NCBI RefSeq assembly: GCF_018446385.1 | Contig: NC_055996.1 | Span: forward strand, 131,426,532 to 131,490,531 | From: Zingiber officinale | Taxonomy: Eukaryota > Streptophyta > Magnoliopsida > Zingiberales > Zingiberaceae | Reading direction: 5' to 3' | DNA: 64,000 nucleotides | Part shown: one piece after another, positions 5,224 to 58,113 of the stretch | Numbering within the stretch: the first letter of the stretch is position 1 | Layout of the letters: the number at the start of each line of letters is the position of its first letter | Notes under the pieces: model-generated | What the model was told of the DNA's origin: nothing | What the model saw: the letters and a program-made list of their open reading frames with translations, nothing else | Databases searched by the model: none | Made by a program: the position numbers and the translations under genes

Positions 5224-5634
5224 TCAGGAGCACGCGTAGTAGTCGACCAGCTCGTCCAGCGACTCCGGCGGCGGCTCGGCGTTCTCCAGCATCCACAGCA
5301 AGTGCTCGAAGAGCACCACCTCGCAGCCCACCACCGTGCCGCCGCCGGAGGCGGCCGGGAGGTCGCCGCCGGTGCGCTCGACTAGGACCTTGAAGAGCGG
5401 GTGGCGGAGCAGGTCGGCGGCCACCAGGTAGCGGCGGCGGGAGCGGCCTACGTAGACGGGGTGGAGGCCGGCGGGGACGACGTCGGCGCCGTGGAAGGAG
5501 CTGGCGGAGGAGAGATGCTGATGCTCCTCCTCGTCGACGGCGGAGGAGGAGGCCCCGCGGCCGGAGATCCTGCCGGAGGAATGCCACCGCTTGATCATGC
5601 ACTTGAGCTTGTTCAGCTTCCCGGTCATCGCCAT
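5224..5634 (-). CDS. SAUR family protein, SAUR76/77/78-like
   Basis: Single-exon gene for a 136-residue protein. The SAUR domain covers about residues 53-133: VPAGLHPVYVGRSRRRYLV, then HPLFKVLVER, then CEVVLFEHLLWMLENA and DELVDYYAC at the end. The CEVVLFEHLLWMLEN block and the basic start (TGKLNKLKCMIKRW) are typical of the SAUR76-78 branch rather than the PP2C-D-inhibiting SAUR19 type. SAUR proteins are small growth regulators; members of this branch have been linked to both auxin and ethylene responses. A Ser/Glu-rich linker lies at residues 28-48. The gene is very GC-rich while its flanks are AT-rich, as is common for monocot intronless genes. Start at the first Met; a second Met two codons later is possible. 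No convincing TATA box was found; the leader is CT-rich on the coding strand. Confidence 0.9.
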   Translation of the reverse strand: MAMTGKLNKLKCMIKRWHSSGRISGRGASSSAVDEEEHQHLSSASSFHGADVVPAGLHPVYVGRSRRRYLVAADLLRHPLFKVLVERTGGDLPAASGGGTVVGCEVVLFEHLLWMLENAEPPPESLDELVDYYACS

Positions 5635-7426: not shown

Positions 7427-7456
7427 TTACATAGTATAAGGTCCATTGGCACTATT
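7337..7456. repeat. 60-bp tandem duplication across the ERF-VII stop codon
   Basis: Units 7337-7396 and 7397-7456 differ at only three positions. The right-hand unit contains the last codons and stop of the ERF-VII gene (minus strand). The left-hand unit is a copy of that end, now in the 3' untranslated region. Confidence 0.95.
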
Positions 7457-10400
7457 CTCTGGCATTGACAGGAGATCTTCAAAGTTCCAGAGATCCATAT
7501 CACATATATTCTGAATCACATCACTACTTAGAAAGTCTGAGTTACCACTGTATGGATAAGGCGCCTGCACAGAATTCATGGGATTGGAAAAAGAGAGTTT
7601 GAGTGCAGAGTTATCAGAAGGAATTAGTTCTCCAGCATCATTTTTCAGTTTCTTCGGCGGGGAACCTTGAAAGCAAGCCATTTCATCAGCTCCAGTCATG
7701 ATTGAAGCAAGAAATGCTGTGATCTCAGGAGTTTTAACCTCGGTAACACGGCTATTGTTGGAACCATCAAAAAAGTTGCTTTGTTGATCAGAGTGTAAAT
7801 TGTTTGCAGGTCCCCCAGTTGGTAGAGACTGTTTCATATTGGTGAAGGAATTCATGAACGATTGTCCAATAGGTACTTTCTCTTCAAGGAAGTCAAAAGA
7901 ACAGAAATCTTGATCTGGTTCATTCAGGAAATTGGTAAGATTATTGAAGTTGAACTTCTCAGGTTGGCTAGGCTCGCGTACTTTTGTTGCATTCAATTTC
8001 AGTGGATGATTTTGAATAGCTGGTGGTGTCTCATCAGGGAAGTTCACCTTAGCTTTCTTGCCACGGATACGACGGGCTTCATTATCATACGCTCTTGCAG
8101 CTTCTTCGGCAGTGTTGAAAGTTCCAAGCCAAACACGAACTCCCTTACAAGGATCTCTAATTTCAGCTGCCCATTTTCCCCATGGGCGCTGTCGGATCCC
8201 CCTGTATTGGGTCTTTCTCTTCCTCTTGGCACACTTAGCTGCAGGTCCACTGAATTCGACTGGTTTCAGTGCATGTGGTGCATTTGCTGCAGCTTAGTAG
8301 AATAGCAGTTTGAAATTTAGACCATTTGCAGTGTGATTATTATTAGTTTAGGGAAAATGAATGAAAACCAAGATAGAGTTACAAAATCAAAGAGTCTAGC
8401 AATCTAGCATATAAAAGAAAACCTTACTAGGAACCAGATTTGGATGCAACGTTCCTGCTTCCAAAATAAGAAAAATGATAAGAATGAAAAAGCATGAGCA
8501 AATAACATTTTCATTTCTAGGGAATATCATAATATGTTCGATAGCAGTCTCAACATTTATACTAGTCCAACAGAGAGGCGACAATAACAAACAAACAAAA
8601 GACCTATCTATTTTTGGTTATCTATACATATCTTATCCAATCATTGAACTTCATTCTAAGGCCATAACACCAACATTACCATTTTCTTTATTAATAGTCT
8701 TAAGAATAATTTAATTTGGTCTTATTCTACCCAACAAATCAATCCTAATCTCAGCATGTCTAATTATACAATCACATTAACATATCCATATCATCTTTAA
8801 TTTGTTTCCTCTCATTTTATTGGATACTGGAGATATGCCTAAATTTTCTAAGATAAGGGTGTTTTTTAAGCTTTCTACTAAAATCAAACATTCATCTTGG
8901 TATTGTTGTCCTACCCCACACTCCTAGGAAGTTATTGTTCTATAAAGAGACTATATCTTACTTAAACAGCCTCAAAATGCTAGCTTTCACCTTACATCAG
9001 TGTAACACTATCATAATAATTTTAACCATTTTTAATCAGGAATAGAATCCAGGTAAGAAAAGCATATTGCCTTATGTTTTGCCACAAATTTGAAGTTATG
9101 AGCTAATTGCAGGCTTCGGATGAGTCTACCTTGGAGAAACATATGCTCAAATTACAAATTGAAGCATAATAGATATGTTTAATTTTTTGTTTCATCAAAC
9201 TGTTACATAAACATTCTGTGGGCCAACCCTTACTGTGAGAGATAACTTTATGTTTCCAAACCAATAAAGAAAGTTGATTGTTCACACATTTAATACCACT
9301 AATTCAAGTATGCAAGCCGTGACAATGATTAGTCCTTTTACTAAAAAAAAAAAAAAAACAAACAATCAATTAAAAAAAGAAATAACTCTAAACTTTTACA
9401 CAAAGAAAACAATCAATTAAAGAACATAGATAATTCTTATTCATCTAAGTGGCCCAATTCGCTCAAATCCTTCTATCTGAATTGGTTTGATTTCTTCTGG
9501 ATTCGTGATAATTTTTCAATCCCCTATGAAACTTTCCCAATTGGCATTGATGTTATTTTGCTACATTGTTTATTACCTTGTATTTGTTGATATTATTCCT
9601 ACTTGTGCCTACCATGTATATATGGTGGGGGATTTACATTCTTATTTGAAGATGATGATTGTGCACGAGTATTGTGCAATTTCAAGTATTCAAAATACAA
9701 CAATTTTTTACCCTACTCTGTTCCATGGTATCATGGTGAATTCTCAACCCTTTAGTGTATCCCTTGTGTTTTATGTTTGAGTTGAAGCTCTAGGATGATC
9801 ATGGCTTGCCCCTCTCTTTCAACATGACTCCCTTTCCATCTTCTCTGCCATGATAATTAGTTGGTGATGACAATGCTTCTTCCATTGTATTGTCGCTGCC
9901 TTCTTCGTCCACTGCAAGTATGCCTATAAGGCCTGAGGTGCTTCACTAGGTTAGTGGATCTAGCTTCCTTTTCCTCACGGAACTGCTCCAACACTCCCCT
10001 CTTCACAGCCTTTTCGATCCCAAAACTTCATCCTTGAATTCCCACTGTCGATCGACAACTACATCATCCAAGTCATTCTCGACTTGGAGAACAACCTTAT
10101 CCTATGTGATCCTCAATCAGAGAATGCCCACTACATGCTCCTCTACATCTGTTGCTCTACATCACGCTGATGTCACATCTAACTACGACCAAGTCCAAGA
10201 GATTCACTTCCTCCAACTAGACTCCCGTTGAAGTCTCCCTACAACATGAACCACATCCAACTCCTTACAACTTGCAGATAGCGAATGGGAATCACCTTCC
10301 CAACTAACAAATCAAGGTCCTTAGACCCAAATTGACGATAGCACACCGGATATTGACAACAATACATCACCAACTCCGAGCCACCTAAATTGTCAAAGTT

Positions 10401-11882
10401 GATCCTCCACGCTATCAGCAACTTTGCACCACCTACTTGCCAAGATTCATCCGAACATACACCAAGATTTGCTTCCCAAATTGACACTAGAAAATTTCAT
10501 TTGCATGAGATGCAAATTGAAGATTCTTCCAACATCTTAAATTTGAAGGGGTGTTAAAAGAAGGAGATTGTTCTCAATCACCTACCTGATTCCCTCTGAT
10601 CCTCCTAGTCAATTTGGTTTGATTTCTTCCAAATTCATCTCTAATTATTTCAAAATCTATCTCTGGTACTTTCTTGATTCATAGTAATGTTATTCTCCTA
10701 TTTTGTATATTATGGTATTTGTTGTATTATTCCTACTCTTAACTACTATGAACGATGTGATTTACATCCTGATTTGAGGATGATCACCGTGTATAATATT
10801 GTACTATTTCAAGGACTGAAATCCCAACAACTTTTTCTCTCAAACTCTCACAAGCATGGTATACAAAATGCACCTTAAATACTGTACCAAAACATTGTAA
10901 AAAAAAAGGCAATGGCTACCTAAAAAAGAAAATCTATTACCAAGGTTGAAAAGTGAAACCATTCCAAAGAAACAACTTTGTGAATAGGAAGAATAGCCAC
11001 ATTAGACGAAAATAAAGAAATAAGTATGAGATGGAAAAACTTCAAAGGGAAAAAACAATCTCCATTCTCCACAAAATCACTTAATATAAAGAAGTGTTTT
11101 CTTCTTTTTTGCAAAAGATAAACAAAGAAGCTTCAATATGAATCATAGACAGAAGATTACTCCTTTAGAACTGGATGAAAAGGAGCAAACCCCCAAATAA
11201 AGTAAACCACATAATCTTCCCTGCAGAAAAGAAGCAATTGAAAAAGTTACAGTCACCAAACAAGAAAAGGAGTAAAGTGAATTCGAAAATATTTGTTGTC
11301 CGAAATGATGCTCATCCTCGAAGTAACAATAGGCAATAGAGAAACGGGAAAGGATGTAAGGCAAATCTCACCTTTAGCAACATAGGGAATAAATCTCTCC
11401 AAACAAGAAGAAAAACTTACTATGATTTAATATTTCCTAGTTCCTGGTAAAGGGAAGAAATTCGGTAAGAAATCAAAACCAATTAATCAATATCAAGCTC
11501 TGAGAAGAACTGGATGAAATCAAAATTACCAATCCTTTTCACCAATGCAGATTAAAAAGTTGAACAAAAAAAACCTAGAAAAGTTCACAAAGAAAAAAAA
11601 AACTATTTTTTTTCTCCACGGAACAATACCTTTGGATGCGAAAGCAAGCGGCTTGTGGTTGACTACCTCCACATCAGACTCCATCAGCTCCTCCTCGAAC
11701 TCCTCGAAGTCCTCCTCGAAGTCATCTTTCACCGCCGAGCGCCACCCGCCGTTCTTCTTCTTCTTCTTCCCCGCCGCACTAGCTCCGCCCTCCTTCAGAT
11801 CCGACCACAGGCAGTCGGAAGTTAGCCACCACGCGGGCCTACCCACCGGAATTAAGTCAGAGATGATCGCTCCTCCGCACAT
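7427..11882 (-). CDS. Group VII ERF transcription factor (RAP2.12/RAP2.2-like), two exons
   Basis: Exon 1 is 11882-11630 and exon 2 is 8292-7427, joined in phase 1 with GT-AG borders to give 372 residues. The protein starts [12 protein letters not shown], the conserved N-degron of group VII ERFs: after Met removal, Cys2 is oxidised by plant cysteine oxidases and the protein is degraded in air but stable in hypoxia. The frame continues 5' through AAG to a TTG, but only the ATG at 11882 gives Met-Cys, so that start was chosen. A basic cluster (AKRKRKT, residues 105-111) precedes the AP2/ERF domain (about 112-170) with [18 protein letters not shown] and WLGTF. The C-terminus is acidic and aromatic (DLWNFEDLL, about 351-359), like the activation region of RAP2.2/2.12. 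It should bind GCC-type and hypoxia-responsive promoter elements. The 3337-nt intron carries an old LTR element. Confidence 0.93.
9415..10858 (+). mobile_element. Small non-autonomous LTR retroelement fossil in the ERF-VII intron
   Basis: Two diverged direct repeats of roughly 300 bp (about 9415-9724 and 10552-10858) share an ordered set of matches, e.g. TTTGGTTTGATTTCTTC, a TGTATTT/TTTGTTG stretch and GATTTACAT-CTTATTTGAAGATGAT. The left repeat is followed by TGGTATCATGG, close to the usual initiator-Met tRNA primer site. The right repeat is preceded by a purine-rich GAAGGGGTG tract and begins TGTTA. The roughly 830-bp interior has no recognisable gag or pol. Together this fits a decayed, copia-style non-autonomous element. 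Its ends are approximate and it is old and broken. Confidence 0.6.
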
Positions 11883-11938
11883 CTTCAATCGCCGACTCCC
11901 CTTTTTGTTCTCAAAAACACCGCTGAGAGAGAATGTTG

Positions 11939-11948
11939 CTATATATAG
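11939..11948 (-). promoter_or_regulatory. Likely TATA box of the ERF-VII gene
   Basis: CTATATATAG lies 57 bp upstream of the start codon. The sequence is palindromic, so orientation is taken from the gene. CT-rich leader follows. Confidence 0.6.
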
Positions 11949-12881
11949 AAAGGGAGAAAGCTGAGGGATTGGCTTTATATTCTATTGAAATTACAGAAAC
12001 AAGGGAAGGTTAACGTATCCAATAATCAAATTTTGCTAAATATTGATAGGGAAAATTTTATTTTACACCTCATATTTATTTTCTCTGACAAAATAGTTTT
12101 AAACTTACGAGCGCTACGCTACCAAATTATTAGGGTTGTTTGTTTAATTTTCAAAGAAATTGGATGTAAAATAATTTTTTTGCACAACTTTTGGAAACAT
12201 TAATTATTTATAATTTAAAATCCAAGGAATATAATTATGTTTTTCTTTCCATAATATGCCACGGAAAATGCATTCAATTTGGCTACTTGGCATATTTTTC
12301 ATTTTTAATCTTATTTTTTAAGAAGGTTGTAATTTTAAAAGAATTTTATATTAAAATAAAAATAAAATAGATATTTTGTGTTAAAGCAAAATTTAGCTGA
12401 ATTAAAAATTATATTCAATTTGTTTTTTTACTATATTGACTTAATTTAGTATTATTACCATATCATAATTAAATTTTATTTTAGATTTTTTTTAATTATT
12501 TAAAAGTTTAGAAAAAAATAATTTATATTCAAACAAGGGTGGATATTTTTATTTTTGCAATACGTCATTCATCTTATTTATTTGGACAAGATCTAAAAGA
12601 AAATAATATGTATTTTTCTTCTTTTTTTTTCATTCAAATTGAGTTAAAAAAAAAACTAAAAGAAAAGCGTACGTCTGCATCAAGAAGCATCCAACTATTC
12701 ACTACTTAAACGGAAAAAGAAATATTATATTATTTTCAAATTTGTAATATAAAATTTAAAAAATGAAGGAAATATTATATTGTTTTCAAAATCTGATATA
12801 TTACTGATTATAATGATATTATTTTAAACCAAATAAAATTTAAAAAAAAGGATGATTCTTTTGATGTCCACCGTCGGATCA
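11949..12881. other. AT-rich intergenic DNA between the ERF-VII and PME genes
   Basis: Contains the distal ERF-VII promoter and the 3' region of the first PME. Long A/T runs, no gene or clear repeat seen. Confidence 0.6.
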
Positions 12882-15124
12882 CTAGGCGAAGAGTCCCAAG
12901 CGAACAGGTGTGTTGGTTTTGGGGATCCAATCGCCGCCCTGGATGAAGGTCGCCGGCGTGAAGGAGGCCGCCTCCGCCCGCGAGATGACCTTGACGCCGG
13001 GCCAATTGACTCTCTTGCCAGTGCCGCCGCCGCCGCCCGTGTTGCTGTACTCGGAGTAGGTTAGGGTTTTGAGGGCGAAGTCGCCGTCCCAAGGCATGTA
13101 GCCTTGGGTGTCGATGAAGTCGCCGATCTCGGATTCCATGATGGCGGTGCGCGAGTATTTCTGCCACGGGCGGCCGAGGTAGTTCCGGAAGGGCTGCTTC
13201 GGCGGAGGGTCGGGCTTGGCGAGGGTGGGATCGGGCACGATGCGGCAGTTATGGAGGACGAAGCCGGTGGTTTCCTGGGGGAGGGTGCGGCCCTGGGCGA
13301 GGACGATGGTCTGCTGGTTGTCGAGGGGGCGGAGGACGGTGAGGATGCAGTTCTGGAAGACGGCGGCGGCGTCTCCGAAGATGAAGTCGATGGTGCCGAG
13401 GATTAGACAGCCGCGGTAGAACTGGCGATGGCAGAGGGCGTAGAGGGTGTCCTGGTAGCCCTCCATGCGGCAGTTGAGGAAAATGGCGCGGTCCGACTGC
13501 ACACGGAGCGCCACCGCCTGGTGCTTGGCCGCGCCGGCCGTGTTCTGGAACCCCATCGCCACGGCCATGAACCCGTCGCCGATGGCAGCTAGCAGACAAA
13601 AAGGTAAGCAATTTTATTTCTTTTTTAAATATTATTCCTTTAAAAAATATAATTTTTTGTGGCTGCTGGGATTCGAGCCCAGGTCTCTACGGCCACAACG
13701 TAGAATTCTCACCACTAAACTACAGCCACAGTAGTGGATGAGATTAAGACCAAATTTTATTAATAGTAAGTTTACCGAAGGTAGCTGTGTGGAATGTCTT
13801 CACTCCATCGACGAAGTTTTTGCTTCCTGTTACAATCGTCTTCCTCGATCCATCGCCGTACATTGTGATGTTTATCATGCTTGATCCCACCTCCACGGTC
13901 TCCTCGTATACTCCCTCCTTCACATAGATCACATACCTTCATACAACGTCGTGACGATTGCTGAGAAAGCTAGAATTTTTTTTTGTTTGATAGATTGAGA
14001 ATTTTGCAGGTCGCGATTGCTTGCCTTCCATCATATTTCGCCGGCAAATGAGACAGCGCGTCCGAAATAGTCTTGAAATCTCCGGTTCCATCCTTGGCCA
14101 CAGTCACGTTGGGCGTGAACTCCTTCGTGGCGCGGCTCTCCAACACTCTCCGCTCTGACTCTGGCACCCATGCCGGAATTCCATTGGCGGAGTGGTTCTC
14201 CTCCTCCTCCTCCTGGAGGAGCCGGCTGCCTGAACCATGCAGCACCGGCGCAAAAGACGAGACTTTTCCCACGATGGTCAGCGCGTTGCTCGTCATCCGC
14301 TTCGCCGACTCCAGCCTCGCCTGCATCTTGTCCTGGAGCTCGCCTGCGGGGAACCCGTCGATGCATGTCTGCTGGTACGCGGAGGTGGCGCTCAGCCAGT
14401 TCTTGAGCTCGTGCACCTGCGCCGGGAGATGCGACAGGGAGTTCGCGTCGTCGATGGTGCCCAGGGTGCGGTTGAGCTCCCCGGAGGCATACCCGTGCAT
14501 CTCCCGGCATTGCTCGACGGCAACCTTCACGTCCGGGTCGTCGGATTTTATGTCGTCCAAGCTGGCGAAGGCCCCGTTGACCTCGTCCACGAGCGCAGAG
14601 ATGGCGGCGCGGACATATTCCTTGGGAGCGGAGTTGCCGTTCGTTGACTTCTTGAGGCTCGCCTCGCAGGCGCTCTTGTAGTCCGTCGACACGCAGATTA
14701 TCTGCTTCCCAATTAATCATCTCGTTAATTGAAATTCTTACCATTAAGATCAATTTAATTACTATACTTTCGGAGAATTTGATTATATGTTTTAAGGTCT
14801 AATTACGACCTGGATGACACTAGAAGTGGATCCATGGTCGTCGCCCTTGTGGGAAGCAGAGGACGAAGAGGATGATGATAAGGCGGTGGAGCCACCGGCG
14901 CCGGAATGCTTGCTCGACAATGAGTTTCCGTGTCCCCCATCCGCGGGCTTGTATACCACGGCGACCGCCGCGACCACGGCGAGGATAACCACCACGGAGG
15001 CGACGGCGCCGGCGATCATGAGGCGTTTCCTCATCCTTTGAGCCTTCTCGGCTCTCCGCCGCTCCGACACAAACCCAAACTCCTGGAACGCAGACATGGC
15101 TGCGACCTTCGTCGATCGACTCAA
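12882..15124 (-). CDS. Pectin methylesterase with inhibitor domain (type I PME), four exons
   Basis: Exons 15124-14810, 14701-14025, 13936-13776 and 13588-12882 give 619 residues. A signal-anchor helix lies at about 35-58, the PMEI domain at about 106-265, and the PME catalytic domain from about 303. The RRVL site (289-292) between them matches the processing motif at which the inhibitor part is cut off in the secretory pathway. Catalytic landmarks are all present: GVYEE (339-343), QAVAL (Q408), QDTLY (D431), DFIFG (D452) and LGRPW (R524). The enzyme removes methyl esters from wall homogalacturonan. Intron 2 (88 nt) appears to begin with GC rather than GT (GAAG|GCAAGC). Intron 3 (187 nt) holds a tRNA-His gene. 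The start could also be Met10 (MSAFQEFG, typical of the family). The second PME lies 229 bp upstream in the same direction. Confidence 0.92.
13642..13647 (-). terminator. Pol III terminator of the intronic tRNA-His
   Basis: On the minus strand a run of six T begins 10 nt after the tRNA 3' end, the usual RNA polymerase III stop signal. Confidence 0.7.
13658..13729 (-). tRNA. trnH-GUG: tRNA-His (anticodon GTG), nested in PME intron 3
   Basis: A 72-nt cloverleaf on the minus strand. The acceptor stem GTGGCTG/CAGCCAC has 7 perfect pairs, the anticodon stem CTACG/CGTAG has 5 perfect pairs around loop TTGTGGC (anticodon GTG), and the T stem CTGGG/CCCAG is perfect around CTCGAAT. The A box reads TAGTTTAGTGG and the B box GGCTCGAATCC. 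The discriminator base is A. The extra G at position -1 of tRNA-His is normally added after transcription. From memory it matches plant cytosolic tRNA-His with one compensating base pair change in the anticodon stem, so it looks functional. It lies wholly within the 187-nt intron 3 of the pectin methylesterase gene, on the same strand. Confidence 0.95.
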
Positions 15125-15295
15125 ACTTTCTTTGCTCTTTATCTGCCTCTGCCTGATTCCTTCTCTCTAGGAGGGAAGATTTGTAAGTTTTATCAATTAG
15201 AGAAATTTGTTCAGAAAAACCAGAGGCGGGGAGCAGTTTGAGGATCTGCTGCATTGGGTGGTCAATGGCAATTCCAAGATTCTTAATTTCTCGCG

Positions 15296-15303
15296 ATTTT
15301 ATA
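15296..15303 (-). promoter_or_regulatory. Likely TATA box of the first PME gene
   Basis: TATAAAAT on the minus strand, 171 bp upstream of the start codon and inside the 229-bp gap between the two PME genes. It implies a leader of about 140 nt and a promoter separate from that of the upstream PME. Confidence 0.6.
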
Positions 15304-15353
15304 GACATTAATTAGTAATCCAATTTCTTCAACTATTGCAGGAATGAAATGCT

Positions 15354-17256
15354 CTATAGGAGCCCACTGCTGTAAGGAATTGATGTAGAAGACAGCCATG
15401 CGTCGGTGGAAGTGAAGTTAACGAGAGTGAAGTTGTAGGCGTCCATGGAGTTCATGAGGCTGAAGCCGGGCCACTTTACCCGCCCGACGGTGTCGGCGCC
15501 GGGACCGTAGTTCTGGAACTCGCCGTAGTAGAGCGTGCAGAGCGCGAAGGGGCCGCTCCACTCTAGCCACCCCGCCGGATCCACCGCGTCGCCGATGAAG
15601 GACTGCATAACCACCGTGCGAGAGTAGGCTTTCCATGGGCGGCCGAGGAAGGTTTTGGCGGCACGGCCGAGTTCGGGGGCGGCGCTCACCGTGCAGTTCT
15701 GGATGGAAATCCCTGTGGACTGTTCCGGCATGGTGCGGCCCTGTGCCGTGATGACGTTGGATTGACCGTGGAGAGGGAGGCGCGCGTAGAGGTTGCAGCT
15801 CTGGAAGACGGCGGCGGCGTTGCCGAAGATGAAGTCGACGGTGCCGTAGACATCGCAGTCGCGGTAGAACTGGCGGAGAGTGTGCACGTATAGCGTGTCC
15901 TGGTAACCGAGGAAGCTGCAGCGGTAGAATATGGAGAGGTCGGCGCTGTTCCGCGCCGCCACCGCCTGGAACTTCGCCGCCCCTGCAGTGTTCTCGAAGG
16001 TGATGCCGACGGCGATGAACCGCTCCCCGTTAACCGCTGCAATAGGCATATTAACATGTCAATTAATTCATTTCTTCGCGTCAAAACTCCAACTTGTGAT
16101 CGGAGAAGGTATCAAAATTTCATCTTGACCATCGATTTGATTGATATTCTCACCGAATGTAGCGGAGTTGAAGGTCGTCCATCCATCGCCGACGCTGTGA
16201 TTAGACGTGATTACTGTCCGATTTATGCCAGATCCGATCAAAATAAGATTCCTCTTGTTCATGGGGACGACCACATTTTCGCAGTAAACGCCTTCGCTTA
16301 TGTAGACAGCGAAGTACCCGGCGACAGCAGCGGCAGTGTCGTTGGGGGCGAAAGCGACGGCGTCGGAGATGGAAGTGAAGTCGCCGGTCCCATCTTGGGC
16401 TACCCTCACCCCTGACTTCGATAGCTTTACCGGCACGATCAGGCTGAGCTCCTCGACGAGGCTCCGCCCGGCGGTCGTCGGAGGAGCAAGCGGTGGAGGT
16501 CCTGTTAACAAAAGCACGAACATCGAATCAAACAGATATTCAACCATGAGATCGCTTGACACGAGGCATTTCATGGCCTCAAGATCTCCCTTTTTCCAAA
16601 TCTGGGTCCCAAAATAAAGCTCGCGAAAACACATTTGTTTTGAGTTATTGTCGTTGATCACCTGTGTTGGCGGCGGCGGAGCTCCGGCCCAGCGCGGTGG
16701 CGACGAGCCCGAGCGAGACGCCGTAGAGCTGCGTCCCGTTCGCGAGCGTGCTCTGCAACTCCGGAAATCCGCCGTCGCGGGACGCCTGCAGGCCGTCGTA
16801 GCATGTCTGCTGGTTAGTCACCACGGCGCTCATGAGCGCGCGCACCCGCCCAGCGGCGGCCACGTCTAGCGACTTCCCACGCCCCAGCTCAGCCTGCGCA
16901 GCAGCCAGGTACTCCGCGCTCAGCCCGGCCAGGTCGCGGCAGTCCTTCATCGCCCCGCCGCCTCCAACTCCGCGATGCGCCCTCGCGCCGCCGAGCCTGC
17001 CGGCCAGATAACCGTCGAGGAGCGCGGCCGTGCGCCGCGCCTGCCGCAGCGCCTGCCGCACGGAGTACTTGCCGTACTCGTACTGGTTCTTCGGCGTGGA
17101 CCGTAGAGGAGAAAGCATTGCGATGCAAAGCTTGGGATAGAAAGACGACTTGCAGGCAGCCGCTGGAGACACCAACGAAGCCGGCGGTGAGCCGGCGGCG
17201 GCGACCAAGGGGATTAGAAAGCAGAGCAGGAGAAGAAGAGCTCCGTTCGACAGCAT
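15354..17256 (-). CDS. Pectin methylesterase with inhibitor domain (PME7/40/41-like), three exons
   Basis: Exons 17256-16662, 16501-16154 and 16036-15354 join in phase with GT-AG borders to give 541 residues. Residues 1-21 form a cleavable signal peptide (MLSNGALLLLLCFLIPLVA). The PMEI domain (about 30-190) has the Cys pattern AACKSSFYPKLC and an NQYEYGKYSVRQ block, as in Arabidopsis PME7/40/41. The catalytic domain starts near 229 with GVYCEN (269-274), QAVAA (Q338), QDTLY (D361), DFIFG (D382) and LGRPW (R447), so all known active-site residues are present. The processing site between the domains is weak: GRSLVEE stands where many relatives have RRLL. It should be secreted to the cell wall. 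Introns are 160 and 117 nt. Its partner gene follows 229 bp downstream but differs in N-terminus and introns, so the pair is not a recent duplicate. Confidence 0.93.
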
Positions 17257-18066
17257 TGCTACACGTGTGACAGTAGAAAAGGTTTAGCGGCCTGCTCCAC
17301 TTGGATGGATCGGCGAACGATCGAGCCTATAAATAGTGAGTGGAAGGGACTAAATGGAAGACATGATCGGCCGCCCACTTAGAGCTATCACCGTCCACAT
17401 CGTCTTCCACTTCGCGAGTGTGCAGATCTATAAAGGAAGTAATTTCGATCGGAGGAGGAGAAGACGTGGTTGGCCTGAGGATGCCTTGTCACAAGGGACG
17501 GTGCAATAAAGTTGGAGGAAGAGTTAGAGAAAAGGGTTGGGGAAAAATGAAAAGAGCTTCATATCATCATGTTTTTTATATATAAAAAAAAATCAACCTC
17601 CACCATTGCCACCAAGACATGGTAAGATCTGAACTACAAGACATGTGTTTTTAATTTTAATTTTATTCATTTTATAATCCAAGAACATCCGACTAATCTT
17701 CATAGTGACCCATGTAATCCTATGGAAGTTTTTCAGAGTATCGGGAAGTGAATATGAGTCCTGACATATATATGACCCAATATTATAAATGATTTATGTA
17801 ATATGCCTCAAAGTGAGATTTAAACTTTTATTGCTTAGAAAACTCATCTCATCGTTTATCATCACACCATAATCCCGAGAACCTTGACATGTGTTTTTAA
17901 AAAAGATAGATTTGCTATCTTATCGGCCCCCCAGTGTCGTTGACATGTATTTTTAAGCAAACAAGCAGAGTGGTCTTTGAGCAAAAATGGTTGTTTTTAA
18001 GCAAACATCACAAAAATATAGTTATTCTTCCCGTCTAAGACCGTGATTTGATGAGTTAGTGAAGAG
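17257..18066. other. Upstream region of the second PME gene
   Basis: Promoter and intergenic DNA up to the copia element. Nothing else was recognised. Confidence 0.5.
17327..17336 (-). promoter_or_regulatory. Possible TATA box of the second PME gene
   Basis: CTATTTATAG on the minus strand, about 70 bp upstream of the start codon. On the plus strand it reads TATAAATA, a stronger match, so orientation is uncertain; position favours the PME. Confidence 0.45.
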
Positions 18067-18071
18067 CAACT

Positions 18072-18411
18072 TGTAGATTTATATTCTAAATGCACGATAA
18101 ATAAATTAATTAAATGCGATAAAAACTTACAGCGATCTCCCGCAGATCCGCAATCAGTAATGGCGAAACTCATTGTCGGAAGAGCGATCACAGGATTGGA
18201 AAGCCCTCCGCAATTCCACAAACCAAATCCTACCGCCTTGGATATTCACCTCTTACTCTCGTCTCCAATCCACCCTGATTCTCATTCTTGATCCTTGGAC
18301 GCATCCCCTTTATATAGGGAAATAAACCAGGAGCATAATGGACCTTTTTCATTATGAGTAGTGGAGAACATAGGTCATGTTCCCATATCCCCACTCTCCC
18401 CATTTCCAACA
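18072..18411 (-). repeat. 3' LTR of element D
   Basis: Matches 27265-27605 over its full length at about 95%. A purine-rich GGGAGA tract lies just before it in element orientation. Confidence 0.95.
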
Positions 18412-19678
18412 TCTCCCATTCATCCAAGGTAAGTCACTAAGACTAGTTCATTCAGGTAAGTCACAAAGACTTAATAAGTCACATAGACTATTAGAGAGTT
18501 TGGTAACATAGACCATATGAGAACATCCAATCCATACTTAGAGAAAATGGTTCGTGCGACAGCAAGCACACTGAGCGATAGTTGCTAAGAAGATTGTTAC
18601 ACATTGACTTAACCGCTCCTTGAGCAAGCAATGCTAATAAAGTTGTTACACTTTGCTTAGCTGCTCAAATAAATTAGAGACACACTCTTCATGGTACATA
18701 TCCTCTTTCCTAGTGGCACATAGCTTTTATCCAGGATCCATCCAATCTTCAAGTGACACACAACCATTATTTTGAAGATATCCATGTCTTGCTATTTACC
18801 CAGATTAAATAATTTTTATTTACATCGATATGAACATCTCTAATCTCTTATAATGACCATTATGTCAAGAGCATGTTTCATATCCAAAATTCACATTCAT
18901 TTCTATACATAACAGAAATGGGTCGACCAGTAAATAACAACAAAAGATGTAAATATATTTAATCTTCCTTTTTAGCTAAAATCAATTCATTTTAATCAGT
19001 CGCTTTCCTAGTTATGCTCCATAGACCGAATCATCCATAGTCATAGGATACACGCTAAAGTAGCAGACACTGATTAAAACTTCAAATAAACAGCTAAATA
19101 GTCACTAAGGCAAAAATTGAGATTAACATATAATCTCAAAGGTCTCACATAGTAGAGAAATAGGGATTCTTTCTTCTACTACCTTTATTGTCGCAATAGC
19201 ACATGTGGTATGAATAACATGTTACGATGTTATTCTCTTTACTAAAAAAAGCACATGTTGTCTTCAAATTTAATATCGTACAGATTTTGATCTAGACATA
19301 CTTAACGTCTAATCCGGAATTCAACATATGAATTCTAATCTGGCCTTCAACAGGTTCAGTAAATGGTGGGTTCATTTACTTAGATCATTATTTACACATA
19401 AATGATCTCATCTTAACACAATTATCAAGGCGACCTCAACTTATGAATCTGTCTCTAATTTCATAATTTCAGCTACGTAAGATGTTTCATAAGTAACAAT
19501 CTTACCCCTATTTGTACTTAACAAACAGAGATGATTGTCCATGTGAGTGGACCAATCTCCACCTGTCAACATGCTCACCGAGATCTTATATGAATGTAAC
19601 AAATACAACATATACACTGAATAAATTATGACAAATGGCACAATCAAAACACAAAGTCTGATTGTTATTTCAATGGTG

Positions 19679-21105
19679 TTACATGTTGGTGCAACCTTAG
19701 GTCAAGGTTGATCTAGTTGACCAGACTCGAGTTGACTTGACTCGAGTTGTGTTTTGATGTTTGACGAGTTATGTTTGACAATGTTTGACGTGAACAGAAA
19801 AGTTGTATCTTGATGTTTGACAAGGATACAAGCTTGGGAGATTATGGGTGCAACCAGTGGTCAAGGTTGACCTGGTTGACCCGGGGTCAAGATTGACCAA
19901 ACATCTGGTGAAAAGTCTAAGCAGAGAGCTTGGCACGGGAAAAGTCCAAGTATGGAGACTTGGCATGGAGAAGTCCAAGTATGGAAACTTGGCATGGGAA
20001 GTCGGAGAGAGCTCGGTAGCTCGTTCTCTGGACCGGACGAAGTCGGAGAGGGCTCGGTAGCTCGTTCTCCGGACTAGGTCAGAGAGGGCTCGGTAGCTCG
20101 TTCTCTGGACCGGACGTGGAAGTCGGAGAGGGCTCGGTAGCTCGTTCTCCGGACTAGGTCAGAGAGGGCTCGGTAGCTCATTCTCTAGACCAAGCGTTAG
20201 GGTTTAGAGCTGGGAAGCTCTAACCTAGCCATTGGATCGGTCGGCAGACCGATCCAGTGATGCCTCTATGAGCTTACTGATCGGTCTGGGGACCGATCAG
20301 CATGAAGCCTGATCGGTCCCCGGGACCGATCAGGGTACGCACAGAGAGTTGGGCAACTCTCTGTGAAGCATTCTGATCGGTCTAGGGACCGATCAGCATA
20401 GAGCCTGATCAGTCCCCACGACCGATCAGATCAGCCCCAGACCGATCAGGGTGATGCCTGATCGGTCTGGCTCTAGCCGTTGAGAGACAACGGCTAGATT
20501 CTTCTGCTGTCTTTGGACTCTGTTCTTCTCGCAGGTGGATGCAGGCTATAAAAGGGCTGAGGGCTTCTACAGTGGAGTCTCTCTCTTACTCTTCTTCTTC
20601 CTCTCTGTTCCTTCTTGCTGCTACTATTTCTCTAGAGCTTTGCTGAGCTCTCGTCTAAGCTTCGCGTGAGCTTCCTTTCGGCTGGGTTCCTGCTGTTGTA
20701 GGCGTCGCTTGAAGCTGCTGCTTTATCCAGTTGAAGAGAATGCAAGTAAGCGAAGGTTTTACAGTTGTATTGTATTTTGCTTCTTGCTGTACTTGTACTC
20801 CTTCTTGCTGTTGTAAGTTTTTGTGGCGAGGTTTCTCCACCCATAAGGAGTTTATATTAGCCGGTTTTCCGGGGACTCATCCACCGACGGATTGATAGAC
20901 TTCGTCCACCTTACGGACACGCCGAGGAGTAGGAGTATCATCTCCGAACCTCGTTACATCTTCGTGTTGAGGTTTGCTTTTCTTTTTTCGTTTCTATTTG
21001 TTATTTCCGCTGCACTAACCCTAATCGTAGGAAGAAACGAAAGAATTTGAGGTCGGCTATTCACACCCCCCCTCTCTAGCCGCGTACATCGATCCTAACA
21101 TTACA
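19679..21105 (+). mobile_element. Solo LTR of the SIRE-like family A, inserted in element D
   Basis: 19684-21100 starts TGTTGGTGCAACC, ends GATCCTAACA and matches the LTRs of element A (31745-33629) in outline, including the GATCGGTC palindromes, the TATAAAAG promoter region near 20547 and the CTATTCACAC end. It is flanked by the duplication TTACA (19679-19683 and 21101-21105) with no internal region, so it is a solo LTR left by recombination. It is shorter (1417 bp) and clearly diverged from element A. The insertion point overlaps the end of the copia polyprotein region. Confidence 0.93.
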
Positions 21106-24100
21106 TTCTACGAAGTCCCAAAGACTTTACATGTTCTTTAAATGACTCTTTAGTCATTGGCTTAGTAAAAGGATCTGCAAGCATAACACGTGTAGGTACA
21201 TACTCAAGGATGACTTTTCTTTTAGCCACAATATCCCTTACAAAATTATATTTAATTTCTATATGCTTACCTTTGCTATGATATTTAGGATCCTTGGAAA
21301 AAGCTATTGCAGCTTGACTGTCACAGTAGACAGTTACTGGACTCCCACTATCCTCAGCAATTTTCAGATGCTTCAAAAACCTTCTTAACCAGACTGCTTC
21401 TTGCACAGCCGCTGAACATGCCACATATTCATCTTCCATAGTCGACAAAGCTACACAAGCTTGTTTCTTGCTATTCCAGGAGATGGCGCCACTATTCAGC
21501 AAGAATGCATAGCCTGATATGGATTTTCTATCATTCAGGTCTCCAGCCCAATCTACATCTGAATAACCTTTCAGACTCATATCTGATCCTTGAAAACAGA
21601 GACAATAATCTGTTGTCGCCTTCAGATATCTGAATATCCTTTTTACTGCCTTCCAGTGTCTCGGTCCTGGGTTTGACTGGAAGCGATTGACCAAGCCCAC
21701 AACATAGCTGATATCGGGACGTGTACACAATATAGTGTACATCAAACTACCAATAGCACTGACATATGGGTTTTTATTCATTTCAGTTATTTCCTCTGGA
21801 GTTTTAGGACACATACTCTTGCTCAACACAGTACCTTTCACAATAGGTGTATGTTCTATGTTGCAATTAGACATGCTAAAATGATATAACATCTTATTTA
21901 TATAAGACTCTTGTGACAAACCCAAAAGTCCTTTAGAACGATCTCTTATGATATTCACCCCTTAGATGTATTCAACTTCTCCCATATCTGTTGTATCAAA
22001 TTGTGATGACAGCCACTTCTTGACTTCATTCACATATCCTATGTCATTTCCAGCTATCAGCATATCATCAACATATAATGATAAAATGACATACTTTCCT
22101 TTTTCCCTTTTCAGGAAAACACAATGATCCTCATTGATCATCTCGAAACCATAAGATAACACGACTTCGTTAAATCTTATGTTCCATTGTCTTGACGCTT
22201 GCTTTAGCCCATATATTGACTTTTTAAGTCTACATACTTTTTGCTCTTGGCCTTCAGCAATGAAACCTTCTGGTTGAACCATATAGATTTCTTCGTCAAG
22301 ATCACCATTAAGGAAAGCGATTTTTACATCCATTTGATGTAATTCCAAGTCATAATGTGCCACAAAGGCCAAAATAACTCTTATTGATACAAATTTCACT
22401 ACAGGAGAAAATGTCTCTTCAAAGTCAATACCCTCAATTTGGGTATATCCATTTGCAACTAAACGAGCTTTGTATCTGTTAATCGATCCATCTGTTTTCC
22501 TCTTTATTTTGAGAATCCACTTATTCCCAATAGCTCTTCGGCCCGGAGGAAGATCGACTAAGTCTTAAACATGATTTTGAATCATGGACTCCATTTCTTC
22601 AACCATTGCAGCTTTCCATTTTTCTCTAACTCTACATCCCAATGCTTCCTCAATGGATTGAGGTTCGTCATCGTCAATTAGAAGTGTAACCAATGCCTCA
22701 TTCTCAATATCAAACCTCTTCTTAGGTTTGATCTTACGAACACTTCTCCGTAAGTTAGGCTGTTGAGAAGTCAACTCATGACTCGGTATTTCACTCCCAC
22801 TCGGTTGACTAGACTCAGGTATCCCTTTTGACACCTCTCTCGTTGATAATATCTCATCCTCCTCAAATAGAAGAACATTTTTATCAACATTACCTCTGAT
22901 TGGAAACTTTGTTTCGAGAAAAGTCGCATCTCTCGAGTCTATTTCGGATATGGTTCCATCTAGTTGCTCACCTATGAAAACATAACCTTTGGAGGTCTCA
23001 TGATATCTTATAAAGATACATTTCTTACCCCTAGGTCATAGTTTTCCATACTTGTGAGAACTGTCATGAATATAAGCAGCTGACCCCCAGGGTCTCAGAT
23101 TACTCAAATCTGGTTTTCTGCCTGTCCAACGTTTATATGGGGTAGATGGAACTGACTTTGAAGGCACTTTGTTAAGTATATAGGCTGCAGTTAATAATGC
23201 ATCTCCCCAATAGGAAATTGGCAAATTAGCTTGCGCTATCATAGACCTAACCATTTCAAGAAGAGTCCTATTTCTTCTTTCAGCTACCCCATTTTGCTGT
23301 GGAGTTCCAGGGATTGTCAGCTGTCTAATAATCCCTCTATCATTACATATTGTCTTGAACATATCAGACAAATACTCTCCTCCACGGTCAGTGCGTAAAG
23401 CCTTAACTTTACGTTCCGTTTGATTCTCAACTTCGTTCATATAACGAATGAAGCAATCTAATGCTTCATATTTGTGAGAAATCAAATACACATGACCGAA
23501 CCTAGAGAAATCATCAATAAATGTAATGAAATAGGAAGCTCCATGTCTAGCCTTCATATTCATTGGACCACAAATATCCAAATGAATTAACTACAATGTT
23601 GATTCAGATCTAATAGCTTTACCAAATGGTTTCCTAGTTGCCTTTCCAACAAGACAATGCTCACATATAGACAATTGAATCTTAGCTCGAGTGCCTAATA
23701 GACCCTCTCTAGCTAACCGATTCATACGTTCTTGTCCTATGTGTCCTAATCTAGCATGTCAAACTTCATCAGTTATATCTGCATCACTAGTTAAAGCAAT
23801 GTTTGAAAAATAACCATCAATAGCATAATTGTCATCTGGTTCTACATCAAGAACCATAAAATCATTTGTTAAAAAACCATATCCGATTGACACTGAGTCA
23901 ATCTTAAGTTCAACAGACCGACTGTAAAAATTAATACAATACCCTAAATCAAGAAGACACGTAACGGAAACAAGATTCCGTCGAATTTCAGGAGTATACA
24001 GGACATCATGTAGAAATAAAACTCTACCACCACGTAGGTTGAGTTTGCAAGTGTCGACTCCTTTGACTTCAACTCTTGCATTATTTCCCACATAGATCCA

Positions 24101-25096
24101 CTTGTTGGCAGCTGGTACCCGACGGTACTCAACAAATGTAACTCGTTCCCGAGCTACATGGTTGGTTGCTCCCGAATCCATAATCCACAAAGGATAAGAA
24201 TCAGCTAACAACACTGAACTAGCAACAAAATACTCTTGAAAAGAAGACACGCTTGGATTTACCTTTTTCGACTCAGTGCATTCCCGAGCAAAGAGGCCCT
24301 TTTTGCCACAATTAAAACAAGTCAACTTGTTTTTAGGTTTCTTTACAGTCTTCTTGACTATCTTCTTAATTGGGTCTTGTCCCACAACAGCAGCTTCCTT
24401 CTTCTTTCCCTTCCCTTTCAAGAACCATTTTTTTTTCTTGGATCCATATGATCCTGCAGAACCTACAGCCACATAGGCTTGTCCAGAAATCCTTGCGGAT
24501 TCAACTCTCTCCACCTCCAATTCTACATGGCGTGAGACGTCAGTGAAAGTCTTGGTACTCTCACTGTGAGTTAGGGTCTGCTTCATGGTCTCCCAAGAAT
24601 CTGGAAGTGAACGAATAACTGCTTGAACCTGTTGTTCATCAGTCAACTCATGACCAGCAGTTTTAAGCTCCCGAATCATGTTCGACATCTCCCTGAGGTG
24701 TTGAACCATTGATACATTCGGATGCTTTTTGTAGCTGCCAAACTTGATTGTCAGTTGGCGAAGCTTGCTCAGACTTACTCCACTATATTTTTCTTTAAGG
24801 GCAACCCAGACTTCATGAGCCGTAAGATATGACTCATATTCAAAAGCTAGGTCGTCTACCATTGAACTAATCAATATACCCTTTGCAGTGGAGTCCTTTT
24901 TCTTCCATGCCTTATGGGCATCAAGATCTCGTCTGTGTTGTGCAGTGGGACCATCTACAGGTACTTCCATAACCTGATTTACAGCCTCTAGAACTTCTTG
25001 TTCCTCAAGTACGTATCCTGAGGTGCCAGATCTTGTAGTTATCCTTATTAAGTTTTCACCTTTGTTGAGTTCAGCTATTATGTTTTTGGTTGTCAT
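21101..25096 (-). pseudogene. gag-pol region of copia element D (fossil)
   Basis: In element order: gag (from 25096) with a UBN2-like capsid part and a CCHC knuckle (CFNCGKKGLFAREC); protease with MDSGATNH; integrase with LRTDRGGEYLS and GTPQQNGVAERRNRT (about 23036-23581); RT with LYVDDMLIAG (about 21962-22399); RNase H up to VKSLGLRRM at 21101. The parts are those of a Ty1-copia element, perhaps Tork-related, though the lineage is not certain. The region is broken in a few places and is not a functional gene. Confidence 0.93.
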
Positions 25097-25535
25097 AATC
25101 TATCATAAATAAACACATTATTTAGTATTCAGTGTATATCATATGTATGCAATTTATGATTGACTTAATATTACTTTGAGTTGGTTTACAAAATCAAATG
25201 ACAATTATGTTTTCACTCATCATTCGTATGACCAATCAAATTAATATTAATCAATTTTATTACATACATCCCAACAAATGAACTAATCATTTTTAATATC
25301 ATGAATTCTTTAATTAAATGAACTAATCATTTAATATATCATTTTTTTTAATTAAATGAACTAATCATTTAATACTTCATGAACTAATTATGCATCATGT
25401 CAAGCAAACGGTATAAATAAATGAACACATCAATAACATAAAATTATGCTGCAAATTGTTAACATATAACTAATTGACATAAATGAAATGGACTAACTAT
25501 TGTTCATACAAAACGACAATAAAAATAACAGAACT

Positions 25536-26039
25536 CTAATAAACTAGATAGACAACTACCGCTCCCACTAGGACAGACACTAGTGCAGTGGCCAAAATAA
25601 TCTCTCTCAGCCTGGACTCATTTGGGGTAATCACAGGCAGGACAGCTTCAAGGCTCTCTATTGGATCCACAATTGGATCCTCTTCTGGTTCCTCCTCGAT
25701 CATTTCTGGGTCCTCTTCGAACTCTTCCGGATCCTCTTCAGTCATATGATGAAGCAACTCCTCACATAGTACAGAATATGTGACGTGTCCTTGATGACAC
25801 CCCCAAATATAGTCCGCTATCATCCTAGGATTTTCTAGCAATGATTGCATCAAAGCCCAAATCCTATAACTGTCCAGGACTGGAAACTCTTCTCGCTCAA
25901 GTTTCCAAAACAGATCATCAAGCCGTCCAATGTGTCCGTCGACTCCATAAGCAGAGTTATACTCTATCTCCTGAATCTCCTCCCTGAGCTGATTTCGTCG
26001 CACTTCGCGACGAGTCAATGTGGTAATCATCCGTGCCAT
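25536..26039 (-). other. Extra reading frame between the 5' LTR and gag of element D
   Basis: An open frame of 167 codons beginning MARMITTLTRREVRRNQL. It is basic at the start, has a charged middle with YRIWALMQSLLENPR, a strongly acidic stretch (EEDPEEFEEDPEMIEEEPEE, about 112-131) and ends in a hydrophobic segment of about 20 residues (ATALVSVLVGAVVVYLVY) that could be a membrane anchor. The product is not recognised and does not look like gag. On the coding strand it is preceded by TACTAAC, a T-rich tract and CAG directly before the ATG, which resembles a splice branch point and acceptor. It could be a captured host fragment or a lineage-specific extra ORF; the function is unknown. Confidence 0.5.
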
Positions 26040-27248
26040 CTGAAAAATTGAAAATAAATAAGTTAGTACAAAACCGACTAACCAGTACAAAACTAGCTTA
26101 TTTCAATTTATATAAGCATAGTACCAACATAATAAATGAAGAAAAACAAATCTTCTCGATTTTCAGGAGTTTAAGTCGACAATTAGAACTAATCTAATTG
26201 GTCAGACCCATTGGATTGGTTGATTAGGGATCCAGATCCTAAGCTTGGTCCATTGTCCATAATTAGAACTAATCTAATTGGACAGGGATTTTTGTACCTA
26301 TGTTCTGTTACTTTTTCTCTAAGTCCATTCCTACCAATTTCAGACTTATTGATCAAACTCAGGTCCGTTTGATCAAACCAATGCTCATTGGTTTAAGTCC
26401 AACCAATTAGAACAAATCTAATTGTTTTGATCAAATCTAACTCATTAGAACAAATCTGGTCATTTGATCATATTTGGTCCAAGTCTAATTAATCAACCCA
26501 AATTAATTTAGGGTTGGATCAAATTGGTTTAATTAAACCCAATGGTTTAATCTAAACCGGGTCTAATTGGACCAACCAGTTTAAACCCACCTGATTAATT
26601 AAAATTAATCAATAATTATAATTTTAATTAATTTTAACATGCATTATTTATATATATTAATATAAATAATTTTTTTTCAAACACGTAAGCTTAAAAAAAA
26701 TTCTGCATGAAAAAAAATTAAACAAAAAAAATTTAATTGCATGTGGCAATAAAATTCTTATCTCTGTGAACGTATCACAGCATTACCAGCTTTCTGTTTT
26801 TGTTTTGAAAAAAAAAAACAAAAACTTCATCTTTATCTCTATTCGTTTTTCTTTGCCTCACAACCCCGCATATCGTGCACGTCGTGTACGCTGTGCACGC
26901 CACCAAGCCGCCCACTTCTATCACGCTGCCCACGCCGCAACTGCGACAAACACAGTCGTCAGCCATGCCAGCCTTCTGCCGGTGGCAGCCGGTCCTTTCA
27001 GGCCCGACGAGATCGCCAACTGTGGTTCTGCCCGTCCTAGCTACTAACACATAGCCGGCCAGCCAAGACGTCATCGACGACCACAGACTTCCGTCGTCGG
27101 CAAATCCAGCGGTCTTGATTTTGCAAATTTGGTACAACGTGTATGCAACGACACATTAGTCGTGCAAAACAGCGACGGGAAATAACAAAATGAGGAAACA
27201 TTCGTACGACAATTTCATAATTCATCTATAAGCATTTAGAAATAACTA

Positions 27249-27263
27249 GGCGCTCTGATACCA
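27249..27263 (-). other. Primer binding site of element D
   Basis: TGGTATCAGAGCGCC in element orientation, one base after the 5' LTR, complementary to initiator-Met tRNA as in most plant copia elements. Confidence 0.9.
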
Positions 27264-27264
27264 T

Positions 27265-27605
27265 TGTAGATTTATATTCTAAATGCATGATAGACAAATT
27301 AATTAAATGCGGTAAAAACTTACAGCGATCTCCCGCAGATCCGTAATCGGTAATGGCGAAACTCGCTATCGGAAGAGCGATCACAGGATCGGAAAGCCCT
27401 CCGCAATTCCACAAACCAAATCCCACCGCCTTGGATATTCACCTCTTACTCTCGTCTCCAATCCACCCTGATTCTCATTCTTGATCCTTGGGCGCATCCC
27501 CTTTATATAGGGAAATAAACCAGGGGCATGATGGACCTTTTCCATTATGAGTAGTGGGGGAACATGGGTCATGTTCCCATATCCCCACTCTCCCCATTTC
27601 CAACA
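27265..27605 (-). repeat. 5' LTR of element D
   Basis: 341 bp, TGTTGG...CTACA in element orientation, paired with 18072-18411. Contains CTATATAAAGG (about 27500-27510 on the minus strand), a likely TATA box. Confidence 0.95.
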
Positions 27606-27610
27606 CAACT

Positions 27611-57522: not shown

Positions 57523-58113
57523 ATGGCGGCTTCTCTTCCTCCTCCTTCACCGCCGCTGCCTCTCTTCTTGTTCTTCGCATTCGCCGCCGCATCTTCATTT
57601 GCTGTCGTGGTCCATTCCCACCGCGACGCACCTTCCCTCGCCGCCGGCAGCCTCATCGCCTCCACCTGCAACCGCACGCTCTACTACGACGTCTGTGTCG
57701 CCTCCCTCTCCTCCCGCCCCAGAAGCCGCCGCGCTGACCTTCAGGGACTCGCCGCCATCGCCCTCGAAGTCAGCCTCGCACACGCCAAGGTCACCGTCGC
57801 CCTCGCCAAGAACCTCTCCAGGCGCCACGACGCCAGCGGCGGGGAAGGCCACACCTACGCCGCCTGGTGCCTGAGAGACTGCGTCGAGGAGTACAAGGAG
57901 GCCGTGGACGTGCTCCGGCAGTCCTCCGCCGCACTTCGCCGCGGAGCCTACTACGACGTAAACGACCTCGTCTCCAGCGCCATGACCTACTCCGACACTT
58001 GCGAGAGCGCCTACGCCGACAAGCCCGGGCTGCAGTCGCCCTTCGCGGAGAGGAGCGAGTACTTCTTCAAGCTCTGTAGCGTCGCCATTGCCATCGCCAA
58101 TCTCCTCCCATGA
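57523..58113 (+). CDS. Invertase/pectin methylesterase inhibitor domain protein
   Basis: Single-exon gene for 196 residues. Residues 1-31 form a signal peptide with a hydrophobic FLFFAFAAASSFAVVV core. The PMEI domain covers about 42-193. The four conserved Cys are C49 and C58 (STCNRTLYYDVC), C120 (LRDCVEEY) and C160 (DTCESAY), which form two disulfides in known family members. The LRDCVEEYKEAVDVL and MTYSDTCESAY blocks are typical, and C116 and C185 are extra. The protein should be secreted to the wall or vacuole, where family members bind pectin methylesterases or acid invertases one to one; the sequence does not decide which. The coding region is very GC-rich. Two PME genes with built-in PMEI domains lie 40 kb away, but this is a separate family branch. 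Confidence 0.92.
   Translation: MAASLPPPSPPLPLFLFFAFAAASSFAVVVHSHRDAPSLAAGSLIASTCNRTLYYDVCVASLSSRPRSRRADLQGLAAIALEVSLAHAKVTVALAKNLSRRHDASGGEGHTYAAWCLRDCVEEYKEAVDVLRQSSAALRRGAYYDVNDLVSSAMTYSDTCESAYADKPGLQSPFAERSEYFFKLCSVAIAIANLLP

Follow-up and report, generated by a model that had tools for sequence, protein, structure and literature searches.

Can an intact nuclear tRNA gene work from within a short intron of a plant protein gene, and does its presence cost the host gene anything? The question is raised by the minus strand of a 64,000-nt stretch of the Zingiber officinale genome (hereafter the window, meaning the whole stretch of DNA that was analysed), which lies on contig C11. ARAGORN detected a single tRNA in the 64-kb window, a tRNA-His with anticodon GTG at 13657-13730 on the minus strand, and Rfam RF00005 matched 13658-13729 on the same strand over its full length with 64.4 bits (cut-off 29; E 1.1e-11). 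Delimited accordingly, the tRNA-His(GUG) gene (13658..13729) is 72 nt long, has its discriminator A at 13658 and carries no encoded CCA, and every pair of its cloverleaf is Watson-Crick or G-U (21/21). Downstream, the first run of at least four T residues is a T6 (13642..13647, minus) whose first base is the 11th beyond the tRNA end; it is the probable Pol III terminator and is a T5 in the allele on contig C12. The leader contains a TATA-like AT-rich stretch and lacks the CAA motif, which 24 of 36 tRNA-His leaders have within 50 nt when both alleles are counted. The first-pass annotation had called an intact tRNA-His gene with a T-run stop; the call of an intact gene holds, and a T run does follow it.

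By the gene model, the host gene on the minus strand encodes 610 aa in four exons: exon 1 (14810..15097, start codon beginning at 15097), exon 2 (14025..14701, carrying the PMEI domain and followed by a GC-AG intron), exon 3 (13776..13936) and exon 4 (12882..13588, carrying most of the pectinesterase domain and the stop codon, which ends at 12882). The protein matched the Pfam families PMEI (PF04043, E 4.1e-26) and Pectinesterase (PF01095, E 5.6e-129), and its best solved relatives were the plant PMEs 1gq8_A and 1xg2_A, which we take to be those of carrot and tomato, respectively. With its N-terminal PMEI domain ahead of a pectinesterase domain, the predicted host product is a type-I pectin methylesterase. 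Elsewhere in the window, a stand-alone PMEI-domain gene was observed at 57523-58110 on the plus strand, at a distance of approximately 40 kb from the host and its PME neighbour, and two similar tandem-repeat blocks (31777-32924 and 37053-38267), approximately 5.3 kb apart, share units of 15, 29, 58, 90 and 32 nt.

Intron 3 of the host (13589..13775, minus) is 187 nt long and of the GT-AG type (G/GTAAAC...CTAG/C, slashes marking the exon boundaries). The tRNA occupies 72 of the 187 nt (38%), at 46 nt from the 5' splice site and 69 nt from the 3' splice site, and the intron would measure 115 nt without it. Retention of intron 3 would stop translation 10 residues past the last whole codon of exon 3, the spliced protein aligned to 1gq8_A and 1xg2_A with no gap over the intron-3 junction, and an intron occurs at the same site in the neighbouring PME and in the paralogs on contigs C13 and C14. 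These three observations indirectly support intron 3, and by the gene model the whole tRNA falls within a spliceosomal intron, with the intact host gene on the same strand. The earlier description of a sense-oriented tRNA filling more than a third of a 187-nt PME intron 3 was correct to the base in all its coordinates, and exact in both distances to the splice sites. The fold of the whole intron 3 was nothing unusual (z -0.94). All three 5' splice sites of the C11 host allele have weak predicted U1 pairing; intron 1 starts with GTCGTA, and intron 2 (14024-13937) is a GC-AG intron beginning AAG/GCAAGC.

The 72-nt tRNA-His was then used as a query against its own genome (3,090,333,446 bases in 211 contigs, whose pairing among the large contigs suggests two haplotypes of 11 chromosomes). 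The search returned 41 matches, 38 of which covered at least 70 of the 72 nt, own locus included. These near full-length copies are spread over many chromosome-sized contigs, 34 at 96-100% identity and 4 at 94%, and by sequence the nested tRNA belongs with them to a tRNA-His family dispersed through its own genome. We consider it likely that intron 3 of the type-I PME gene hosts, in sense orientation, an ordinary nuclear Pol III tRNA-His gene equipped with an internal promoter and a terminator. Transcription by Pol III would be directed by the tRNA's internal A and B boxes and end at the T run, Pol II would pass through the same DNA whenever the PME is expressed, and the tRNA would leave with the spliced intron.

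Several observations concern tRNA genes beyond this locus. A loose tRNA-His cluster was found on one chromosome pair (C15:140193367-140294213 and C16:113964371-114034400), in which a few copies are truncated or have a changed stem base. The same two contigs carry a short tandem cluster of tRNA-Lys(TTT) at a spacing of approximately 150 nt, with three genes on C15 (115536619) and four on C16 (96122666). Additionally, a grapevine small RNA, GGUGGCUGUAGUUUAGUGGU, given in a table of PMC6896114, equals the 5' end of the nested tRNA-His preceded by one G; judging from that identity, it may derive from tRNA-His, as a fragment bearing the added G-1, and not be a microRNA.

Comparison of the two haplotypes revealed the tRNA at the same position, in the same intron of the same PME gene, on C12 (144811355-144811426), and the nesting is kept on both. 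Between the C11 and C12 alleles, the host exons showed 9 mismatches in 1830 positions and a 3-nt indel, introns 1 and 2 no mismatch in 196 positions and one gap column, and the tRNA body 1 mismatch in 72 positions. The intron-3 flanks of the tRNA, by comparison, carried 13 mismatches in 111 positions plus a 4-nt indel, a significant excess by Fisher's exact test over introns 1 and 2 (P = 1.1e-6) and over the rest of the gene (P = 3.4e-12). Both sides contributed: the DNA 5' of the tRNA (13730..13775, minus), which includes the TATA-like stretch, had 6 mismatches in 46 positions, and the DNA 3' of it (13589..13657, minus), which includes the T6 run, had 7 in 65 aligned positions plus the 4-nt indel. 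Across 11450-17900, 61 of 6415 aligned positions were mismatched; the two 100-bp intervals containing the tRNA had 7 mismatches each, and no other interval exceeded 4. Farther along the window, the stretch at approximately 18071-27606 has no counterpart on C12, where the alignment skips from 18071 to 27606, and contains ORFs for a copia-type gag and an integrase core; from this content, it looks like an insertion on one haplotype only.

We compared this hotspot with the flanks of other tRNA genes, using 33 reciprocal tRNA allele pairs from the same genome, the nested case included. Fourteen pairs were excluded (the nested case, 5 overlapping cluster neighbours and 8 whose divergence at 150-500 nt exceeded 9%), and 19 were kept as controls. 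In the controls, divergence was 7.2% (105/1465) within 40 nt of the tRNA and 3.8% (486/12790) at 150-500 nt; it was higher near than far in 16 of the 19 pairs, and 3 of the 19 were without this pattern. The control tRNA bodies differed at 3 of 1401 positions. In most of the 8 pairs excluded for high divergence, near divergence was not above far divergence. The flanks of the nested tRNA diverged at 11 of 76 positions (14.5%, counted from the ARAGORN ends) within 40 nt and at 2 of 700 at 150-500 nt, where the sequence is mostly coding; the near value stands at the high end of the controls (range 0 to 17.3%), in which the pattern is weaker. These results indicate that tRNA flanks in this genome tend to diverge more than their surroundings, and the hotspot in intron 3 is likely to reflect transcription-associated mutation at an active Pol III gene. 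It could also have arisen through relaxed constraint or in a single complex mutation event. Gene conversion from another tRNA locus was considered as a source and rejected, as no donor for the flank differences was present among the fetched tRNA loci.

In 2018, Thornlow et al. reportedly described transcription-associated mutation at active tRNA genes, with a conserved body and fast-changing immediate flanks. The nested tRNA has the conserved body and fast flanks in common with those genes, but here the hotspot surrounds a tRNA that is nested in a protein-coding gene, and it extends as far as a splice site. Since the flank hotspot resembles that of other tRNA genes, we infer that Pol III is active on the nested copy.

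It is unlikely, in our estimate, that the tRNA is intact but untranscribed, one of 38 redundant copies over two haplotypes that is drifting towards a pseudogene, as the C12 copy may already be. The single difference in the tRNA body is a G-to-A change on C12 at the second G of the D-loop pair, which we take to be G19. This G is retained in 35 of 36 distinct tRNA-His copies, C12 alone having A, and the Rfam score of the C12 tRNA is 61.3, compared with 64.4 for C11. The change suggests that constraint on the nested copy is weak, and it favours a silent copy, as do the presence of 38 near full-length copies in the genome and the leader without CAA. In the same direction, PMC12308677 states that the contribution of many human tRNA genes to the tRNA pool is small and that similar findings have been reported in plants. 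Against silence, the flank divergence of the nested gene is among the highest when set beside the controls, which fits transcription, and the C11 tRNA is still identical at all 72 positions to the copies on contigs C5 and C6.

The second change of note affects splicing. The 5' splice site of intron 3 (13770..13775, minus) reads GTAAAC on C11 and GTAAGA in the C12 allele and in the C13 and C14 paralogs; because GTAAGA is common to all three, C11 has the derived state, in which the +5 G is lost. The predicted U1 duplex weakens with it, from -8.2 kcal/mol for GTAAGA to -5.5 kcal/mol on C11. By these predictions, each haplotype has one weakened side, the splice site on C11 and the tRNA on C12. The two alleles therefore form a natural experiment within one genome, an intact tRNA with a weakened splice site against a changed tRNA with the ancestral splice site, and this contrast could reveal whether a nested Pol III gene costs a plant host gene anything.

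The first-pass annotation had suggested that tRNA processing or Pol III activity might affect the host. One such cost would arise if Pol III occupancy, or cutting of the nascent pre-mRNA by RNase P/Z at the tRNA, competed with splicing and lowered PME mRNA, most strongly on C11. The pairing of alleles agrees with this proposal, as C11 combines the intact tRNA with the weakened GTAAAC and C12 the stronger splice site with the changed tRNA. In PMC7722341, a significant drop in mRNA was seen with five nuclear tRNAs in the intron of a human reporter. In another reporter, however, no effect could be measured for a single sense-oriented MIR, likewise a Pol III unit, and the antisense orientation cut expression by 20-30%, according to PMC5358760. 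Structure prediction also argues against efficient cutting: the intron upstream of the tRNA is predicted to pair with the D arm, so that the acceptor stem, kept with a leader of at most 12 nt, would be lost in the pre-mRNA (predicted formation 2e-5 on C11 and 2e-4 on C12), limiting cutting. On balance, an effect of this kind on PME output seems quite improbable.

The masking of the acceptor stem by the leader was also considered as a special adaptation and rejected. Misfolding of the acceptor stem in the presence of a leader is predicted to be common among tRNA-His loci: values below 0.05 were obtained for 7 of 36 tRNA-His leaders, the nested one included, and for 23% of shuffled leaders. Values as low as the one observed occurred with 11% of shuffled leaders, and with 5% of sequences when both intron flanks were shuffled. 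Returning to the reading of an active, nested Pol III gene, we infer that the tRNA and the PME are largely independent, and that any cost to the PME is small and falls mostly through splicing and mutation, not regulation.

When did the tRNA enter the intron? The first-pass annotation had proposed dating the nesting from the same intron in related species, and comparison with relatives did help. The closest host paralogs, on C13 and C14, have tRNA-free introns of 117 and 133 nt at the same site, and exon 4 of the host is separated from C13 by a dS of 0.62 over 219 codons. Beside the host, the neighbouring PME (15354..17256, minus) has a same-site intron of 117 nt (16153-16037), also without a tRNA. 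Its closest relatives lie on C5 and C6 (88% identity), followed by a gene at C11:119016310 (87%) and its C12 partner (86%); dS to the C5 copy is about 0.22 over 123 codons. This neighbour serves as one synteny anchor to C5/C6. The anchor on the other side is an ERF-VII-like gene (7427..11887, minus), which is duplicated on C5 and C6 and has the N-terminus MCGGAIISD; its family is presumably ERF-VII, with an N-terminus of the oxygen-sensing N-degron type. A 206-aa C-terminal ORF of this gene matched no Pfam family. A SAUR gene at 5224-5634 of the window gave no further anchor: no copy was found near C5:39.7 Mb, and a weak hit lay far away at C5:160604950.

On the plus strand of C5, the neighbour PME (39649632-39650309), a tRNA-His (39684582-39684653) and the ERF-VII-like gene (39695398) follow one another as in the window, with the same relative strands, and C6 agrees in order (PME 30937658, tRNA 30975485, ERF-VII-like gene 30986723). 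Both tRNAs are the 72/72 identical copies noted above. On C5 as well as C6, the neighbour PME is directly followed by what is left of a decayed host exon 2. The C5 remnant (39650473-39650746) aligned at 67-68% identity over 213 columns and gave two protein matches in different frames. The C5/C6 remnant is nearer to host exon 2 than to the PMEI exon of the neighbour, and a 41-nt piece of the host 5' flank precedes it at 90% identity. Host exons 1, 3 and 4 scored no better in the C5 interval than shuffles (25 each); C6 was covered in parts. As an identical tRNA on the same strand stands between the same neighbours together with a decayed host, the tRNA-His and the host PME were probably together at the locus before the C5/C6 duplication. 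Thereafter, the tRNA was probably kept on C5/C6 while the host copy there decayed. The simplest reading of these sequences, by parsimony only, puts the tRNA inside the intron before the duplication took place.

A different history, in which the tRNA was intergenic beside the host before the duplication and entered intron 3 only on the C11/C12 segment, is conceivable but somewhat doubtful. It would account for the lack of any trace of host exons 3 or 4 around the C5 tRNA. It also draws on a weak AT-rich match to the host 3' flank adjoining the C5 exon 2 remnant; if real, this match would tentatively place the C5 tRNA outside the former host gene. That match, however, was equalled by 41-77 of 400 query shuffles (and by 0 of 200 target shuffles), and an intergenic origin requires that the tRNA by itself made one further move over a short distance. 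The duplicate locus is one at which the tRNA probably remained and the host PME copy died. The +5 G missing from intron 3 on one haplotype, together with the identical tRNA beside a dead PME on C5/C6, led us to consider that a working tRNA gene endangers a host with a short intron through mutation. Changes linked to its transcription would reach the splice sites and aid decay of the host while the tRNA itself persists; we give this broader proposition little credence at present.

As for the source of the nested copy, a tRNA-derived SINE was rejected, because the fetched copies have no shared body and share the tRNA with at most short AT-rich extensions. The flanks of the nested tRNA had no match longer than 15 nt at the other fetched loci except its own allele, and the repeat scan detected no target-site duplication at the tRNA, the only direct repeat lying within the tRNA itself. 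In the literature searched, which was largely outside subscription journals, we found no paper on tRNA genes nested in introns of plant nuclear genes and no base rate for tRNA genes in plant introns.

Intronic tRNA genes are nevertheless known as a kind, and this locus is another one. In Caenorhabditis elegans, 44% of 609 tRNA genes are intronic, a share no different from chance, and Pol III occupancy of the intronic genes is lower on the same strand as the host than on the opposite strand, according to PMC4999229. As described there, these genes, such as sup-7 in intron 3 of C03B1.2, likewise lie in introns of protein genes and are redundant with copies elsewhere, 56% of them in the direction of the host. 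That work tested host-promoter effects and cross-species conservation, whereas here the setting is a 187-nt plant intron and the comparison is among alleles and duplicates. The intronic MIR of Polr3e (PMC5358760) is likewise a Pol III unit within a Pol II intron, and polymerase interference was studied there. It is, however, derived from a SINE and antisense to its host, whereas the nested tRNA-His is in sense, the orientation that was without measurable effect in that system. The nimtRNAs (PMC7722341) are likewise tRNA-shaped intron sequences with possible effects on splicing. They are of mitochondrial origin and are not processed as tRNAs in 293T cells, whereas the sequence nested here matches a dispersed tRNA-His family of its own nuclear genome.
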